The notes below the pieces were generated by a model. That model was given only the letters and a program-made list of their open reading frames with translations, searched no databases and was not told the origin of the DNA. The position numbers were made by a program, and so were the translations under genes. From assembly GCA_011389735.1 (NCBI GenBank), contig JAABTS010000038.1:1-39288 (forward strand): a stretch of DNA of 39,288 bases, given 5' to 3'. The DNA is from Desulfobacteraceae bacterium (GTDB lineage Bacteria > Desulfobacterota > Desulfobacteria > Desulfobacterales > JAABTS01). This document shows positions 4,385-32,462 of the stretch, in pieces (positions within the stretch are counted from its first letter, which is position 1; each line of letters starts with the position of its first letter).

Positions 4385-5092
4385 ATGAAGCCCACAAAAC
4401 GATCTTTTGGCGAATCCCCCGGCCTTTCGCGGCCGTTTGAAAACCTTGACGCCCTGTTAAAACAAAATTCCGTTCAGGTTGCGAAATCGCCTGAATCCGC
4501 GTCGCCTGAAAAACCGGAGCCTATCCCTCCCAAAAACGATCAAGACCTTTTCCGGGACGCCATGGCCGATGTCGTTCCGCTTTCACGAGGCGAACGGCGC
4601 GTATCCGCCGCACGGCGTGTTTATTACGACCCTGATGATATGGATTTCGACGCCGAATCGATGGAACGGCTCAAGGATCTTGTAGAAAGCGGAAAAGGCT
4701 TTGTCGTGGCGGATACATCAGAATACATGGAAGGAATTAACCATCGCGCTCATCCGGAAATCCTCGAAAGGCTCCATCGCGGCGATTTCACGGTACAGGC
4801 GTCGATCGATCTTCACGGATACAATGTTCAATCGGCCAAGGAATCGTTCGACGATTTCATCAAGGACGCCATCGCATCGGGAAAACGATCCGTTCTTGTC
4901 GTCCACGGCAGGGGACTGTCGTCGCCGAAAAAGCCCGTATTGAAAACCAAAGTCAAGGAATGGCTCACTTCCGGACCTTTCAGAAAATGGGTGCTGGCCT
5001 TTTCCAGCGCCCGCTCATGCGACGGCGGCGCAGGCGCCACCTACGTGCTGCTCAGGAACCGCCCTTTGACTAAACGGCACAGGAAATGTTGA
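4385..5092 (+). CDS. Smr/MutS2-domain protein, putative endonuclease
   Basis: A 235-residue protein with a low-complexity, Pro/Glu-rich N-terminus (about 1-60), a middle segment, and a C-terminal Smr domain (about 135-225). Smr signatures are IDLHGYNVQSAKESF (the D-L-H-G motif), VLVVHGRGLSS (the H-G-R-G motif) and AFSSARSCDGGAGATYVLL. Stand-alone Smr proteins are structure-selective nucleases acting on DNA, or on RNA at collided ribosomes in some bacteria. The AGGAGG ribosome site five bases before the ATG is excellent. Its TGA stop (5090-5092) is also the first three bases of the heptamer array. The hrpA helicase just downstream would fit an RNA or translation-quality theme, which is only suggestive. 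Confidence 0.9.
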   Translation: MKPTKRSFGESPGLSRPFENLDALLKQNSVQVAKSPESASPEKPEPIPPKNDQDLFRDAMADVVPLSRGERRVSAARRVYYDPDDMDFDAESMERLKDLVESGKGFVVADTSEYMEGINHRAHPEILERLHRGDFTVQASIDLHGYNVQSAKESFDDFIKDAIASGKRSVLVVHGRGLSSPKKPVLKTKVKEWLTSGPFRKWVLAFSSARSCDGGAGATYVLLRNRPLTKRHRKC

Positions 5093-5284
5093 ATTTTGAA
5101 TGTTGAATGTTGAATGTTGAATGCTGAATTTTGAATGCTGAATGCTGAATGTTGAATGTTGAATGCTGAATTTTGAATGCTGAATGTTGAATGCTGAATG
5201 TTGAATTTTGAATGTTGAATGCTGAATTTTGAATGCTGAATGCTGAATGTGAATTTTGAATGTTGAATCCTGAATGCTGAATGC
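5090..5284 (+). repeat. Heptanucleotide tandem array, 28 units
   Basis: Tandem units of seven bases, TGAATGT, TGAATGC or TGAATTT (one TGAATCC), run for 195 bases. Counting by hand gives 28 units, of which unit 23 lacks one base. The array starts exactly on the TGA stop of the Smr gene and ends about 36 bases before the hrpA ATG. Because 21 bases equal three units, the minus strand reads as a repeating heptapeptide of the type FNIQHSA, which explains two long antisense frames there; these are not genes. Such arrays are known to vary in copy number. Confidence 0.97.
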
Positions 5285-26392: not shown

Positions 26393-28267
26393 ATGCTTCA
26401 AATCGAAAACATTGAAAAAAGCTTCGGCGCTCAGACGCTGTTTGAAAATATTCAGTTCCGGATTAACAAGGGAGAACGGGTCGGACTGGTGGGCCGTAAC
26501 GGACACGGCAAAACAACCCTGTTTAAAATCATTATGGGCGCTGAAGCGCCGGATTCCGGCAATGTCGTCGTTCCGAAGGGTTACCGAATCGGCCATGTCA
26601 GCCAGCATCTTGAATTCACAAAAGATACGATTATCGAAGAAGCGATTCTTGGCTTGCCGGAACACAGGGACGATCAGTCCTGGAAGGCTGAAAAAATTCT
26701 GTCGGGTCTTGGTTTCACCGAAAACGATATGCAAAGATCCCCTTACGAGTTTTCAGGCGGATACCAGGTTCGGCTGAATCTTTCCAAGATTCTTGTTGCG
26801 GAACCGGATCTTCTGTTACTGGACGAACCCACCAACTATCTCGATATTACGTCCATTCGATGGGTGACTCGATTTTTAAAGGACTGGCCCAACGAATTGA
26901 TGTTGATCACCCATGACCGGGGTTTTATGGACAACGTGGTCACCCATGTCATTGGAATTCATCGAAAAACCTGCAAAAAGATACAAGGAAATACGGAAAA
27001 ATTCTATACCCAGATCGCCCAGGAAGAAGAAATCCACGAAAAAACGAGGATCAACGACGAAAAGCGGCGAAAAGAAATCAATCAGTTTATAACGCGGTTT
27101 CGAGCCAAGGCGCGGCTGGCCAATTTAGTCCAGTCCCGGATTAAAATGGTGGAAAGAATGGGAAAACGGGAAAAATTGGACAATATTCAAACTCTCGATT
27201 TTTCATTCAGAAACAAACCCTTTAACGGAAAATACGTTACAATCCTGGAACATGTGTCCTTTGGTTACGATTCGGGGCCGGCCTTGATCGAGGATTTAAA
27301 CTGCACGGTGTTTCCCGGAGACCGAATCTGTATTGTGGGTAAAAACGGAAAAGGGAAAACCACGCTGATTAAATTACTGGGAGGCCGTCTTCCATGTAAT
27401 CGGGGCCGAATCAATATGCACCAGAATGTGTGTTCCGGCTTTTACGAACAGACCAATGTGGAAAGCCTGGTTCCGACCCGGACCGTGGAAGAGGAAATTC
27501 TATACACGTCCGAGGATGTGGATCGTCAGAAGGCGAGGAATATCTGCGGGGCCATGATGTTTGAAGGCGATTCGGCGTTGAAACGGATTTCGGTTTTATC
27601 CGGAGGAGAAAAAAGCCGGGTGATGCTGGGCAAGATTCTTGCCGAACCGGTCAACCTGCTTCTTCTGGACGAACCCACAAACCACCTGGATATGGAATCC
27701 TGCGACGCGCTTTTGACTGCGATAGACCATTTTGACGGCGCTGTGGTTATGGCGACTCATAATGAAATGTTCCTTCACGCCGTAGCCGAACGGCTTCTGG
27801 TCTTCGATGACGAGGGGATATCCGTATTTGAAGGATCTTACCGGGATTTTCTGGATAAAGGCGGTTGGGAAGATGATTCCGAAAATCCCGGAGATGGAGA
27901 AAAATCCGGGTCCCGGCCTGAAACGAAGCCGAAACGGGATCGTAAGGAATTGAAGCGTCTCAGATCGGAATTGATCGGCGAACGTTCCAAAATCATAAAA
28001 CCGATTGAACGAAAAATCGAACAAACCGAATCCGATATTGAAAAATTCGAAAATCTGCTCGAACAATTGAATACGGAAATGCAACGTGCGGCGGAACAAA
28101 AAGACGGTTCCAAAATTACGGAAATATCCCAGTCGATCCATCAATACCAGGCCCAAATCGACGAATTGTTTGAACATTTGGAAGGCTTTATATCATCGTT
28201 GGAAACCAAGACTGCGCATTTCGAGGACAGATTAAAAGCACTTGAATTGGAAGCCGAAGTGGATTAA
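26393..28267 (+). CDS. ABC-F family ATPase
   Basis: A 624-residue protein with two ABC ATPase domains and no membrane part. Domain 1: Walker A GRNGHGKTT (34-42), signature FSGGYQVRLNLSK, Walker B LLLLDEPTNYLD. Domain 2: GKNGKGKTT, LSGGEKSRVMLGK, LLLLDEPTNHLD. The linker carries RFRAKARLANLVQSRIKMVE, the arm that in ABC-F proteins enters the ribosomal E site, and the C-terminus is a coiled coil of about 110 residues, as in Uup and YheS. These factors relieve stalled translation or assist ribosome function. It follows pcm by 25 bases and precedes the DUF166 gene by 16, in one transcription unit. Confidence 0.94.
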   Translation: MLQIENIEKSFGAQTLFENIQFRINKGERVGLVGRNGHGKTTLFKIIMGAEAPDSGNVVVPKGYRIGHVSQHLEFTKDTIIEEAILGLPEHRDDQSWKAEKILSGLGFTENDMQRSPYEFSGGYQVRLNLSKILVAEPDLLLLDEPTNYLDITSIRWVTRFLKDWPNELMLITHDRGFMDNVVTHVIGIHRKTCKKIQGNTEKFYTQIAQEEEIHEKTRINDEKRRKEINQFITRFRAKARLANLVQSRIKMVERMGKREKLDNIQTLDFSFRNKPFNGKYVTILEHVSFGYDSGPALIEDLNCTVFPGDRICIVGKNGKGKTTLIKLLGGRLPCNRGRINMHQNVCSGFYEQTNVESLVPTRTVEEEILYTSEDVDRQKARNICGAMMFEGDSALKRISVLSGGEKSRVMLGKILAEPVNLLLLDEPTNHLDMESCDALLTAIDHFDGAVVMATHNEMFLHAVAERLLVFDDEGISVFEGSYRDFLDKGGWEDDSENPGDGEKSGSRPETKPKRDRKELKRLRSELIGERSKIIKPIERKIEQTESDIEKFENLLEQLNTEMQRAAEQKDGSKITEISQSIHQYQAQIDELFEHLEGFISSLETKTAHFEDRLKALELEAEVD

Positions 28268-28283
28268 AACGGATAAGAAGACC

Positions 28284-28931
28284 ATGATTCAGCAAAAAAT
28301 CACCGTTTTTCAACAAAACAGGGACGGCGAAAATAAAATCCGGGGGATCAGAGAATACGGCCGGGACGCGATCGTCCTTGACGTTATTTCCATTGACGAT
28401 CCTCTGCCGCCTGTGATCGACGATACGACGCCGTTTATCACGGGGCCGGGCGACACGGATCTGGTGCTCGATTTTTTGAAGCACCCGGATCTTTCAAGCG
28501 ATCTTGCGGTTCAATGCGTCGAAAAGGGAACTCCCATTGTGGCGTCGGGGAAAAAAGTCCGAATCAAAGGGGTTTTTACACCGTTCACCTGATGCGGCCT
28601 GGGGAGGCAGGTCTGCCTCGGTTATTACGGAACCCATTTCGGCGCTCCGGAATTCGACGTAACGGTCGAGAACGGCCGAATCGTCAGGGTCCGGGTGATT
28701 CGAGGCGCTCCCTGCGGCGCCACCTGGCGGGCGGCAGACCGTATCACCGGCCTTGGCGTCGAAAAAGCGATGACACAAATAGGCCTGGAAACGCAATACT
28801 TTTGTTCGGCCGACCCATCGTCGTGGGATCCGATCAGCGGTAAAAGCCCGGTTCATTTTGCCGGCGAGATCCATCAGGCGTCTTTTAAAAAAGCGCTGGC
28901 CCAAAACAGAGGCGCAGGAGGATCTGTTTAA
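28284..28931 (+). CDS. DUF166 family protein, candidate selenoprotein (TGA = Sec103)
   Basis: The frame from the ATG at 28284 (AAGAAG upstream) reads 102 codons, then TGA at 28590-28592, then another 112 codons to TAA at 28929-28931. Both halves belong to one DUF166/COG1810-like protein: LEVISID-type N-terminus (here LDVISIDDPLPPVIDD), TDLVLDFLKHPDLSSDLA, ASGKKVRIKGVFTPFT, Sec103, CGLGRQVCLG, GAPEFDVTVENGRI, IRGAPCGATWRAADRI, YFCSADPSSWDPI, GKSPVHFAGEIHQA. The residue after the TGA is Cys104; other Cys are 78, 111, 144 and 174. As I remember homologues, a Cys-Cys pair stands here, so Sec would replace the first Cys. A SECIS-like hairpin follows at once. The frame after TGA has no other damage. 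DUF166 function is unknown; the Cys set suggests metal or redox chemistry. Confidence 0.82.
28590..28619 (+). promoter_or_regulatory. SECIS element candidate with Sec TGA
   Basis: TGA (28590-28592), 11 bases, then stem GAGGCA (28604-28609), loop GGTC (28610-28613) and stem TGCCTC (28614-28619), a perfect six-pair stem. The apical GCAGGTCTGC is the same as I recall for the E. coli fdhF SECIS bound by SelB, and the distance from TGA to the loop (17 bases here) is nearly the same as there (18). The lower stem is weak, with only G-T pairs possible below the six-pair stem. Confidence 0.8.
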
Positions 28932-28975: not shown

Positions 28976-29000
28976 CAACCATTAGCAAAGGAGCTTGACC

Positions 29001-32000
29001 ATGAAAAAACGGTTTCAGATTAAACGCCTGGTTTTTATCACGATTGTGCTGGCGGCGATGGTGTTTGGATTACAACAGGTCGCACCCTGCTTATCGTTCG
29101 CAGCCTCGGAGCCTCCTGCGGGCTCATTGAAATCAAAAGTGTCTCTGCCTGCAAACTTCACGGCGGATCGTTTTCAATTCCGGAAATCGTCCGACCGTAA
29201 TCACGGCCGGATTCAAAAAACCGCCGTGCGGGAAGCCGACAAAGGTCTGACCGGAAACGGCTCCGAATCCATCAACCCGATCAATAAAAAAATCGCTGAT
29301 ATTCTCGACGCCGCCTGTCGGGACAGCGTCAGAATCACTTCCCGCCAGCGAAAACTGCTCAGATCTTCGGCCGATTCAGATCCTTCCGAACCTCTCAGGG
29401 TGCTATTCGATCGCACCCACTCGGTTCCATTTTATATGAAACTGGGCGAACCCAAAACAGGCTCCCCCAAAACAGCGAGAAGCGCCGCTCAGCTCAGAAA
29501 AGCGGCTGGAAATTTCCTTCGCACAAATAAAACCCTTTTTAAAATCAATGACTCGGACTCTGAATTCAGTCTTGCAAAGGAACAAACCGACTCAACCGGA
29601 GTCACCCATCTACGATATCAGCAGACCTGCCGGGGCGTCCCTATATGGGGGCGGGAAGTTTCGGTTCATGCGGATACGGCCGGCGATGTTTTTCTATATT
29701 CCGGAAACCCTCTGCCAAGCCCCAAAACACCGGTGGAAAATCCGGCGTTGACAGCCCCGGAAGCCGCACAAGCCGCATTGAGACATCTGAACATCGATGA
29801 ATCCGGCGATACGGGAACGCCTGAACTTTTCTATTTCAAATCAAGCGACGGAAAACTGTCTCTTGCCTATAAAGTCGATGTGTCCTCCAAAATCGATCAG
29901 GGATGGATCTGCTTTATCGATGCGATGAACGGCGATCTGATTCATCGAATATCCAAAATCCAGAACGAACTAAGAGCCGGTTCCGGGCTGGATTTATCGG
30001 GAGTCAACCGCAGTTTCAACGTTTGGTCCGAAGGCGATTACGATTATATGATCGATCCCAGCATACCTTATAACGATCCTCCCCATTCACCTCTGCCCGA
30101 TATTAAAAATTATGGAGACACTTATGTTCTGGACGCCCGCCACGGAGAGGACAGCGTCTATTTCGTCAGTAAAAACAGATATTCCGGAGACTGGGATCCC
30201 GCCGCCGTCAGCGTCGCATACAATATTAAACGGGTGAACGATTATTATAAAAACACCTTCAACCGGAACGGCATCGACAATCAATATATGAATTATCTGG
30301 TGGTGATCCATCTTTCCAGAAATTATGCGGGCGCCTTTTGGAACGGCAAATTCGTCGTATTAGGAGACGGAGACAACCGCATATTCACTTCACTGGCCGA
30401 TTCGCTGGATGTTCTTGCTCACGAAATCCAGCACGGCGTCACTCAGAACACGGCGGGATTGATTTATGAAAATCAGAGCGGGGCTCTGAACGAGGCCTAT
30501 TCCGATATCATGGCCTGCATGGTCGACCGGGACGATTGGACCGTCGGAGAGGACGTAACCCTTATATCGCCCGGTTATCTCAGAAATCTGATCGATCCGT
30601 CCCTTGCCCCGGACCCGCTCCCGACCACGATGAGTGAATATAAAAACCTCCCGAACACCGAAAAGGGCGATTTCGGCGGCGTTCATATCAATATGAGCAT
30701 TCCCAGCCGGGCGGCCTATTTGATGGCCGATGGTCTCAGCGCCGAAGGTTTGGGCCGGAGCATCGGCCGGGAAAAAACCGAACAAATTTTCTATCACGCG
30801 CTGACTCATTATTTAAAAGCGTCCTCCCAGTTTATCGACGGCAGAATGCTGACGATCGAATCCGCCCGCCAGCTTTACGGATCGGATTCGACTGAAACGG
30901 CGGCGGTTCAGGCGGCCTGGGACGCCGTCGAGGTATACGGTGAAAATATCGGAACGCCCGATGATCAGAAACCGTCCGACGCCGATCCGATTTCCGGAAG
31001 CGACATCATGGCGTATCTCTATCCCCAGGACGGATCCCATAATCCGTCCGGCGAAGATGAAGCCTATGATCTGTATATCCAAAAGATCTCCGAACCGTTC
31101 ACCGGTTACTCCGAGGAGAACGATATCGGGCCGTTGAACCTGGCTCCCGTTCATTATACGCGGCCCGCCGCCGTGACCGAGGGTTATGAAACAATCGTGT
31201 TTTATATCGGAGCGGACAACAATCTGTACGCCGTCAACCTGGACGGTTCCGAACACACTCAAATCACCCGAAGCGGAAATATGCACAGCTTCACGATCTC
31301 ACCGGACGGACTGTATTACGCATACACTTCCGTCTGGACGAACGATAAAAATATCTACGTCGGCAATTTGAACACCAGTCAAGAAACGGCGTATCCGGTC
31401 AAACCCATGACCGACCTGCCGCCTGGAATGGAGGATTATATCAACACAGTCCTTTACGCGGACTCTCTGGCGTTTGATTACACGGGAAGAACCCTGGTCT
31501 TCGACGCTCTGAACTGTATCTCTACGGACAACGACCCCTGCGGTCCGTCGGAAGGCGGCCATCGGTACTGGTCTATCGGTTTTCTGGATGTCGGAACCGG
31601 CGGATTCGAATTTCCTTTTCCGAACCAGAATCCCGACGTGGATATCGCCTATCCGTCGTTTGCTTACAATAACAACTACGTGATCGCGCTGGACGTTATC
31701 GATTATATGGATTTCGTGGACAAAGGCGCTGTCTATTCGTCGGTGTGGACCTTGAACTGGCATAACCAGACCGACGGATACGTCTGCAATCCCAACCTGG
31801 GCCCTGACGATCACCCAGTCTACGGCGTACCCGGTTTTTGGGGAAATGACGACTATATCACCACGCAATCGATCTGGGAAGAAAACGGCGTATTGAATCG
31901 GATTCCCGTTTTAAGCGACTGGTCGGGCGATGAAGGCCGCGCCGAACAAATCAATCGATACGCCGCAGCCATGCCGTTCATGCATCGCGCAGGAAACCGG

Positions 32001-32462
32001 AATTTGTCGGCGGAACTTGATGTAAACCCTTCAGCCATCAATTTCACCGACGTCTCCGTCGGAACTTCCATGCGTCGATCCGTGACATTGAGCAACTCCG
32101 GAGACCGGGATATCAATATCACGAATATTTCTTTAACGGGATCGAGCGAATTTCGTCATAACGGGGTCAATGCGATATTACCCCGGAAAAAAAGCATGTC
32201 CGTAAGCGTTACATATACGCCGACAAGCTCCGGTTCCTCGAGTTCCGCGGAGCTATGGATTGAAAGCGACGCGGATATTCCTCAGAAAACGATTTCGCTG
32301 ACCGGTTCAACCGCTTCAGATTCGCAACCGGAAGAGGATGACGAAGGCGGCGGCGGATGTTTTATTGATTCAGCGGCGTCCGGTTTATACAGGTTTTCGG
32401 ATATTGTTTTTCAGAAGGCCATAAACAGCGCCTTTTTCACTAACGCTCACCAGACGCGGTAA
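29001..32462 (+). CDS. Secreted M4 (thermolysin-type) metalloprotease with propeller, Ig-like and CFI-box tail
   Basis: A 1153-residue secreted zinc protease. Order: signal peptide (about 1-35), FTP/PepSY propeptide (to about 330), M4 catalytic domain with zinc ligands H474 and H478 in HEIQH and E498 in NEAYSD exactly 20 residues on, and catalytic His562 in GGVHINMSIP. Then follow a TolB/PD40-like beta-propeller stretch (ADNNLYAVNLDGSEHTQITR, SFTISPDGLYYAYTS), an Ig-like domain of the ASPM/Hydin type (LDVNPSAINFTDVSVGTS), and a tail GGGGCFIDSAASG resembling the CFI-box C-terminal sorting element. The ATG at 29001 has AAGGAG upstream. It degrades proteins outside the cell. The sensor kinase 5 bases downstream may be co-expressed. 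Confidence 0.93.
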   Translation: MKKRFQIKRLVFITIVLAAMVFGLQQVAPCLSFAASEPPAGSLKSKVSLPANFTADRFQFRKSSDRNHGRIQKTAVREADKGLTGNGSESINPINKKIADILDAACRDSVRITSRQRKLLRSSADSDPSEPLRVLFDRTHSVPFYMKLGEPKTGSPKTARSAAQLRKAAGNFLRTNKTLFKINDSDSEFSLAKEQTDSTGVTHLRYQQTCRGVPIWGREVSVHADTAGDVFLYSGNPLPSPKTPVENPALTAPEAAQAALRHLNIDESGDTGTPELFYFKSSDGKLSLAYKVDVSSKIDQGWICFIDAMNGDLIHRISKIQNELRAGSGLDLSGVNRSFNVWSEGDYDYMIDPSIPYNDPPHSPLPDIKNYGDTYVLDARHGEDSVYFVSKNRYSGDWDPAAVSVAYNIKRVNDYYKNTFNRNGIDNQYMNYLVVIHLSRNYAGAFWNGKFVVLGDGDNRIFTSLADSLDVLAHEIQHGVTQNTAGLIYENQSGALNEAYSDIMACMVDRDDWTVGEDVTLISPGYLRNLIDPSLAPDPLPTTMSEYKNLPNTEKGDFGGVHINMSIPSRAAYLMADGLSAEGLGRSIGREKTEQIFYHALTHYLKASSQFIDGRMLTIESARQLYGSDSTETAAVQAAWDAVEVYGENIGTPDDQKPSDADPISGSDIMAYLYPQDGSHNPSGEDEAYDLYIQKISEPFTGYSEENDIGPLNLAPVHYTRPAAVTEGYETIVFYIGADNNLYAVNLDGSEHTQITRSGNMHSFTISPDGLYYAYTSVWTNDKNIYVGNLNTSQETAYPVKPMTDLPPGMEDYINTVLYADSLAFDYTGRTLVFDALNCISTDNDPCGPSEGGHRYWSIGFLDVGTGGFEFPFPNQNPDVDIAYPSFAYNNNYVIALDVIDYMDFVDKGAVYSSVWTLNWHNQTDGYVCNPNLGPDDHPVYGVPGFWGNDDYITTQSIWEENGVLNRIPVLSDWSGDEGRAEQINRYAAAMPFMHRAGNRNLSAELDVNPSAINFTDVSVGTSMRRSVTLSNSGDRDINITNISLTGSSEFRHNGVNAILPRKKSMSVSVTYTPTSSGSSSSAELWIESDADIPQKTISLTGSTASDSQPEEDDEGGGGCFIDSAASGLYRFSDIVFQKAINSAFFTNAHQTR

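Follow-up and report, generated by a model that had tools for sequence, protein, structure and literature searches.

DUF166 proteins containing selenocysteine (Sec) have been described before. The table of PMC9312934 lists one, with Zhang and Gladyshev 2007 as its source, the list in PMC13188914 enters it under NF041372 on the same 2007 source, and the Sec proteins named for a marine deltaproteobacterium in a passage of PMC8318568 include DUF 166. No function is given for it in those parts of the three papers, and neither of the two review tables assigns it a redox motif. Our literature search for a function under DUF166, PF02593, COG1810, DfsP, and MMP0976, done by whole-word matching that can miss variant spellings, found none. 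For the generic family (PF02593; COG1810 in methanogens), a list in PMC1852104 gives an occurrence specifically in methanogens and A. fulgidus; the example named there, MMP0976, has a locus number eight away from that of a CO_dh protein on the same list. The selenocysteine DUF166 family is already catalogued (NCBIfam NF041372, DfsP) and in print, and the gene described here adds one member to it. An earlier sequence-only reading of this DNA had proposed Sec in DUF166 and left aside whether such a form had been reported; the Sec part of that proposal stands, and NF041372 and the reviews already list the family.

The gene, dfsP, was found in a window of 39,288 nucleotides, by which we mean the whole stretch of DNA analysed, from a Desulfobacteraceae bacterium (Table 1). 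Its frame starts with the ATG at 28284, contains a single internal stop (TGA, codon 103), continues for 112 open codons, and closes with the TAA at 28929-28931, as the sequence-only reading had described. That reading also held that ordinary ORF calling misses the gene; conventional calling of the region indeed yields only 28242-28592 (116 aa), ending at the TGA. The DUF166 signal claimed for both sides of the TGA was recovered as one Pfam PF02593 match running across it (residues 8-205, 133.5 bits, E 1.1e-38, gathering score 24.4). NCBIfam NF041372 matched residues 4-205 with 310.6 bits, against a curated cut-off of 200. With this full-length match, and with DfsP proteins having Sec or Cys at column 103, nothing excludes the window protein from NF041372.

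Table 1. Positions in the window of dfsP, its upstream neighbor, and the codons and predicted elements discussed in the text.
Feature	Position	Strand	Remarks
ABC-F ATPase gene	26393..28267	+	Ends 16 bases before dfsP
dfsP, very probable DUF166-family selenoprotein gene	28284..28931	+	215 residues plus TAA stop
N-terminal half, Rossmann-like alpha/beta domain	28284..28568	+	Predicted model
Cys78 codon	28515..28517	+	129/133 DfsP; absent from generic DUF166 rows
C-terminal half, IscU-like fold	28569..28928	+	Predicted model, pLDDT 94.2
TGA codon 103, very probably read as selenocysteine	28590..28592	+	Column is Sec in 76 and Cys in 57 (n = 133)
Cys104 codon, adjoining the Sec codon on its 3' side	28593..28595	+	Cys in 133/133 DfsP; invariant in the 89-row set with generic DUF166
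SECIS-type apical hairpin, GAGGCA-GGUC-UGCCUC	28604..28619 (loop 28610-28613)	+	-8.2 kcal/mol alone; register conserved
Cys144 codon, GAPCGATW motif	28713..28715	+	133/133 DfsP; invariant in 89 rows; paired by hhalign with the second IscU Cys
Cys174 codon	28803..28805	+	131/133 DfsP; generic DUF166 Cys one column off
His191 codon	28854..28856	+	At least 95% of 133; at least 90% of 89 rows; paired by hhalign with the IscU HC-motif His

The genome to which the window belongs (477 contigs, 96.86% complete) was then scanned for the Sec machinery. All its components turned out to be present above their cut-offs, with 359.2 bits for selB, 599.7 for selA, 372.8 for selD, and 73 for tRNA-Sec, and ARAGORN likewise reported a tRNA-SeC with the anticodon tca. 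The selD gene of this genome is itself of the Sec type: residue 11 of its matched part is encoded by an in-frame TGA.

We then compared DfsP proteins across genomes. NF041372 had a match in 140 of the 389 genomes of the class sample (132 above the cut-off) and in 84 of the 395 genomes of the phylum sample (58 above it). The set compared comprised 133 proteins: the 131 other above-cut-off genes of the class sample, one from a Desulfobacterales MAG (L053), and the window's dfsP. L053 and another member, L112, are identical in the compared columns, carry the same protein, and probably stem from one organism. The nearest relatives found share 60-64% identity with the window DfsP. Column 103 was Sec or Cys in all 133 proteins, with no third residue, and the pair of columns 103 and 104 read UC in 76 (U103-C104 in the window) and CC in 57; the Cys directly after the TGA, pointed out in the sequence-only reading, is thus a constant of DfsP. 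The phylum sample was likewise a mixture of dfsP genes with one TGA and without. One genome holds two dfsP copies (L217 and L218), one Sec and one Cys.

To follow the two forms across the family, a tree was computed with columns 98-116 left out. It required 19 changes of the Sec/Cys label, the mean for shuffled labels being 43.1; the tree is a quick one, with 66 of its 128 inner branches open, and its well-supported branches require at least four changes. As read from these sequences, Cys replaces Sec at the DfsP site repeatedly. Since selA was above the cut-off in 347 of 375 class-sample genomes, its presence is unable to separate Sec from Cys genomes, and the Cys forms mostly live among Sec-using lineages.

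The bacterial SECIS model, in the form in which PMC13188914 states it, has an upper stem of 4-16 bp, an apical loop of 3-9 nt with a G within its first two positions, and a spacing of 16-37 nt. The window hairpin, with a 6-bp stem, a GGUC loop, and 17 nt from the UGA to the loop, fits that description. Defined as at least 4 of the 5 inner pairs plus a loop starting with GG in the window's register, the hairpin was present in 60 of 70 distinct Sec forms versus 3 of 56 distinct Cys forms. Slid registers also paired, though less often: of the 70 Sec forms, 61 had at least 4 of 5 pairs in the true register, and 39, 35, and 26 had them when it was slid by -7, +2, and +5, respectively; at most 9 of the 56 Cys forms reached this number at any shift. 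Folding energy did not single the hairpin out. The free minimum-energy fold of a longer stretch reached -13.7 versus -11.2 with the hairpin enforced, and a 45-nt stretch, whose free fold favors another structure, folded no better than shuffles (z-score -0.74). An unconstrained search picked another hairpin of the window (-8.3) over the conserved one (-8.2); by its criteria a hairpin could be drawn in 74 of the 76 Sec forms, but equally in 37 of the 57 Cys forms. A scan of the whole window with Rfam gave 0 matches.

The hairpin also left its mark on the protein. Among 200 columns, the largest differences in variability between Cys and Sec forms were at 109, 111, 108, and 110, which are the hairpin codons; R108, Q109, V110, and C111 vary little in the Sec forms and widely in the Cys forms. 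Cys111 was present in 56 of 76 Sec forms versus 3 of 57 Cys forms. We considered Cys111 as a redox partner of Sec103 and rejected it, as this residue tracks the mRNA hairpin. dfsP thus offers a case of an mRNA hairpin shaping a protein sequence, the RQVC after Sec being tied to the SECIS and mostly lost with Cys. The three Cys forms that retain a SECIS-like hairpin in the right register (L059, L077, and L086) form, together with L094, a Cys group beside a Sec row, L106 (support 81), and because of this position their hairpins are likely relics of a recent Sec-to-Cys change.

Taken together, the Sec/Cys column, the SECIS-type hairpin, and the Sec machinery of the genome bear out the proposal of a candidate selenoprotein, and on this sequence evidence dfsP is very probably a DUF166-family selenoprotein gene whose UGA is read as Sec103. 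SelB carrying Sec-tRNA-Sec and positioned by the hairpin would decode the UGA. Of the three grounds for refutation named in the sequence-only reading, a genome lacking Sec machinery and a column 103 without a conserved Cys are contradicted by these results, and a sequencing error at 28590-28592 is rendered very unlikely by the TGA that 75 other genes have there.

To place the protein, we compared DfsP with generic DUF166. The two have the domain, C104, C144, and H191 in common. They differ in that generic DUF166 has Phe or Leu at 103 in all 11 rows, lacks C78 in the 11 rows read (the column is unreadable in L201), and has other gene neighbors. A Cys/His site common to DUF166 would consist of C104, C144, H191, and a Cys near 174, to which DfsP would add Sec/Cys103 and C78.

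The predicted structure was then compared with solved ones. The whole-protein model had a mean pLDDT of 95.5, and its best solved matches covered mostly the N-terminal Rossmann-like half, with Z at most 8.5. The top Foldseek rows for this model were catalase, ThuA-like, and CODH entries, with a query TM of at most 0.30. ISCU was seen further down these lists, so the C-terminal half (residues 96-215) was modeled separately from 89 sequences. By title, 26 of the best 29 Foldseek rows for this half were IscU/ISCU and one was SufU, several rows sharing an entry; ranks 7 and 23 were held by xanthine oxidase and a lipoate ligase entry, respectively. The best row, 5wkp_H, had a probability of 0.97 and TM scores of 0.49/0.47, and the lowest E-value was 0.089. 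By VIA, ISCU2 matched with Z 7.5 and an rmsd of 3.1 over 92 of 126 residues, a Z within the range of common arrangements that is equaled by a molybdenum CO dehydrogenase flavoprotein (7.5). The modeled C-terminal half resembles the IscU fold consistently, though not decisively. DfsP would thus be built of an N-terminal Rossmann-like half and a predicted C-terminal IscU-like half.

Sequence profiles gave a divided picture. For DfsP, no match to Pfam NifU_N (PF01592) was listed at E up to 10, a range in which the HMMER filters drop most hits above about 0.1, and searches of PDB sequences gave nothing convincing (best E 0.32 and 0.53). Three DUF166 profiles were compared with one of NifU_N, built from 50 sequences. 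The one made from the C-terminal halves of 11 generic DUF166 proteins scored 26.75 (pair E 5.8e-4, probability 29%), above its controls (maximum 16.2 for 60 shuffles and 20.6 for 44 other families; 21.9 reversed). Both profiles that include DfsP scored 21.0, and the DfsP-wide C-terminal one fell below the best of its shuffles (up to 23.0) and of the other families (up to 23.5), its reversed profile giving 16.3. In the hhalign alignment, C144 falls on the second IscU Cys and H191 on the His before the third; the first IscU Cys falls near FGxP, with U103/C104 upstream of it. Of the three ligand Cys of IscU, only the second has a counterpart in DUF166 (C144), and the first and third are not in place. 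DfsP resembles IscU, NifU_N, and SufU in its predicted C-terminal fold and in the positions of the second Cys and the His, and differs from them in the extra Rossmann-like half, the Sec, and the absent Pfam match. We do not class it as an IscU member, given the missing Pfam match and the Cys positions that disagree.

Of 16 loci of generic DUF166, 10 have the gene either inside a CODH/ACS operon or immediately downstream of a SufB-like gene. In all five loci of family f78 (L288-L292; two more of the seven matching genomes have no usable locus), DUF166 shares 4 bases with a cdhA-type gene, and CO_dh- and CdhC-type genes come after it. These neighbors were profile-scanned in L193, the genome of L288 (cdhA, TIGR00314 with 1033.6 bits; CO_dh and CdhC by Pfam), confirmed by BLAST in L194, and assigned by eye in the others. 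In all five loci of family f81 (L283-L287, all matching genomes), no more than about 20 bases separate DUF166 from the SufB-type gene directly ahead of it; SUFBD_core was scanned in L197, three more were identified by BLAST at 71-85% identity, and the fifth by eye. SufC-type genes precede DUF166 in the four wider f81 loci, one of them with 184.8 bits to TIGR01978, under the cut-off of 212.8. In L284-L287, DUF166 is followed by a gene resembling, by eye, a flavodoxin-fold reductase. The six remaining loci (five of f98, one of f116) had neither CODH/ACS nor SufB context directly beside the gene. In f98, a MinD/ParA-type ATPase precedes DUF166 in L195 and, by eye, in L211; its identification as CooC was dropped, as no profile scan gives that name. 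In the same two loci a CdhE-like gene, named by eye, lies 3.4 kb upstream, with 37.5 and 37.9% identity to that of L193.

The neighbors of DfsP itself were different. Among 1135 neighbor genes at 133 DfsP loci, a search that accepted hits with E of 1e-5 or lower covering half the query revealed no relatives of CdhA, CdhC, CdhD, CdhE, CO_dh, or SufB, and the SufC matches among those printed were ABC ATPases of about 24-30% identity. Co-occurrence with CdhC was weak: it was present in 117 of 140 genomes with DfsP versus 179 of 249 without (Fisher p 0.009, odds ratio 2.0, genomes being treated without regard to kinship or completeness). The missing links at DfsP loci and the added links in f98 pull in opposite ways and leave the odds of a cluster-related function unchanged.

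From the fold, the conserved residues, and the neighborhoods, we tentatively propose, at slightly less than even confidence, that DfsP assembles or carries metal clusters in the manner of IscU, with Sec at its site. What the sequences show are residue conservation, the exchange of Sec and Cys, the SECIS, and the gene neighborhoods of the generic relatives; the fold and the metal are inferred for DfsP, as are the part played by its Sec and the sharing of a job with those relatives. Sec/Cys103, Cys104, Cys144, Cys174, and His191 would hold an Fe-S or Ni/Fe-S precursor or pass on sulfur. Compared with Cys, Sec makes a site more nucleophilic or easier to reduce, and it may do so here. The wider proposal, that DUF166 is an unrecognized IscU-fold scaffold or carrier for CODH/ACS and the minimal SUF-like (SMS) system, with DfsP as its Sec form and Sec replacing a ligand or sulfur-transfer Cys, appears somewhat less probable.

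The alternative that survives best is a thiol/selenol oxidoreductase that binds no metal and in which Sec103 is joined to Cys104 in a vicinal selenylsulfide. Such a selenylsulfide is present in mammalian thioredoxin reductase, and the Cys next to Sec in 76 of 76 Sec forms would provide one. Most selenoprotein families are also thought to act in redox reactions, according to a statement in PMC9312934. Generic DUF166, however, keeps C104 next to its Phe or Leu, so the Sec-Cys pair is not the core of the family; moreover, C144 and H191 are about as conserved, and the tables in PMC9312934 and PMC13188914 are silent on a redox motif. A redox pair accounts no better than a metal or cluster site for the presence of C104, C144, and H191 in relatives outside DfsP. 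We regard the oxidoreductase as somewhat unlikely, and the Sec-Cys redox pair suggested in the sequence-only reading gains no support from the two tables or from Cys111. Less probable still is a sensor or detoxification protein for Hg, Zn, or Ni instead of an assembly factor. The conserved Cys/His set would suit it, as would the vicinal thiols, which are known to bind soft metals, but the informative neighbors of generic DUF166 are cluster-enzyme or cluster-assembly genes.

A translation-linked role together with the upstream ABC-F ATPase appears very improbable. The ABC-F gene and dfsP possibly form one transcription unit, and in 22 of the 126 dfsP loci with an upstream gene in view the immediate upstream neighbor, on the strand of dfsP, encodes an ABC-F protein, under 14 family labels, of which about 13 are independent because L053 and L112 carry the same protein. 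On the other hand, 104 other loci do not have it there, 41 of the 47 loci of family f12 have a LUD-domain gene in that place (one profile-scanned), and the adjacency may merely be old gene order. On the other side of dfsP, the + strand at 28995-32462 encodes a thermolysin-type (M4) peptidase that carries a choice-of-anchor D domain. Elsewhere in the window, positions 5085-5283 hold an array of the 7-base unit AATGTTG (28.6 copies, 84% matches), which gives rise to minus-strand ORFs of repetitive sequence. That an ordinary DUF166 gene suffered a nonsense mutation or was misread in sequencing, which the single stop in the frame would allow, can be dismissed, and with it the pseudogene, in view of the 75 other genes with TGA at the same codon and a register-conserved hairpin that nearly all Cys forms lack.

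What appears to be new here is the evidence that the DUF166 family may help build metal-sulfur clusters, the selenoprotein family itself being known. If the proposed link to Fe-S or Ni-Fe-S clusters is true, it puts Sec into a cluster-assembly site and makes the function of DUF166 directly testable. SmsCB works without a known carrier, as stated in a passage of PMC12192291, and the M. jannaschii genome contains a putative DUF166 match; were the proposal true, DUF166 would be a candidate for the carrier missing beside SmsCB in that organism.
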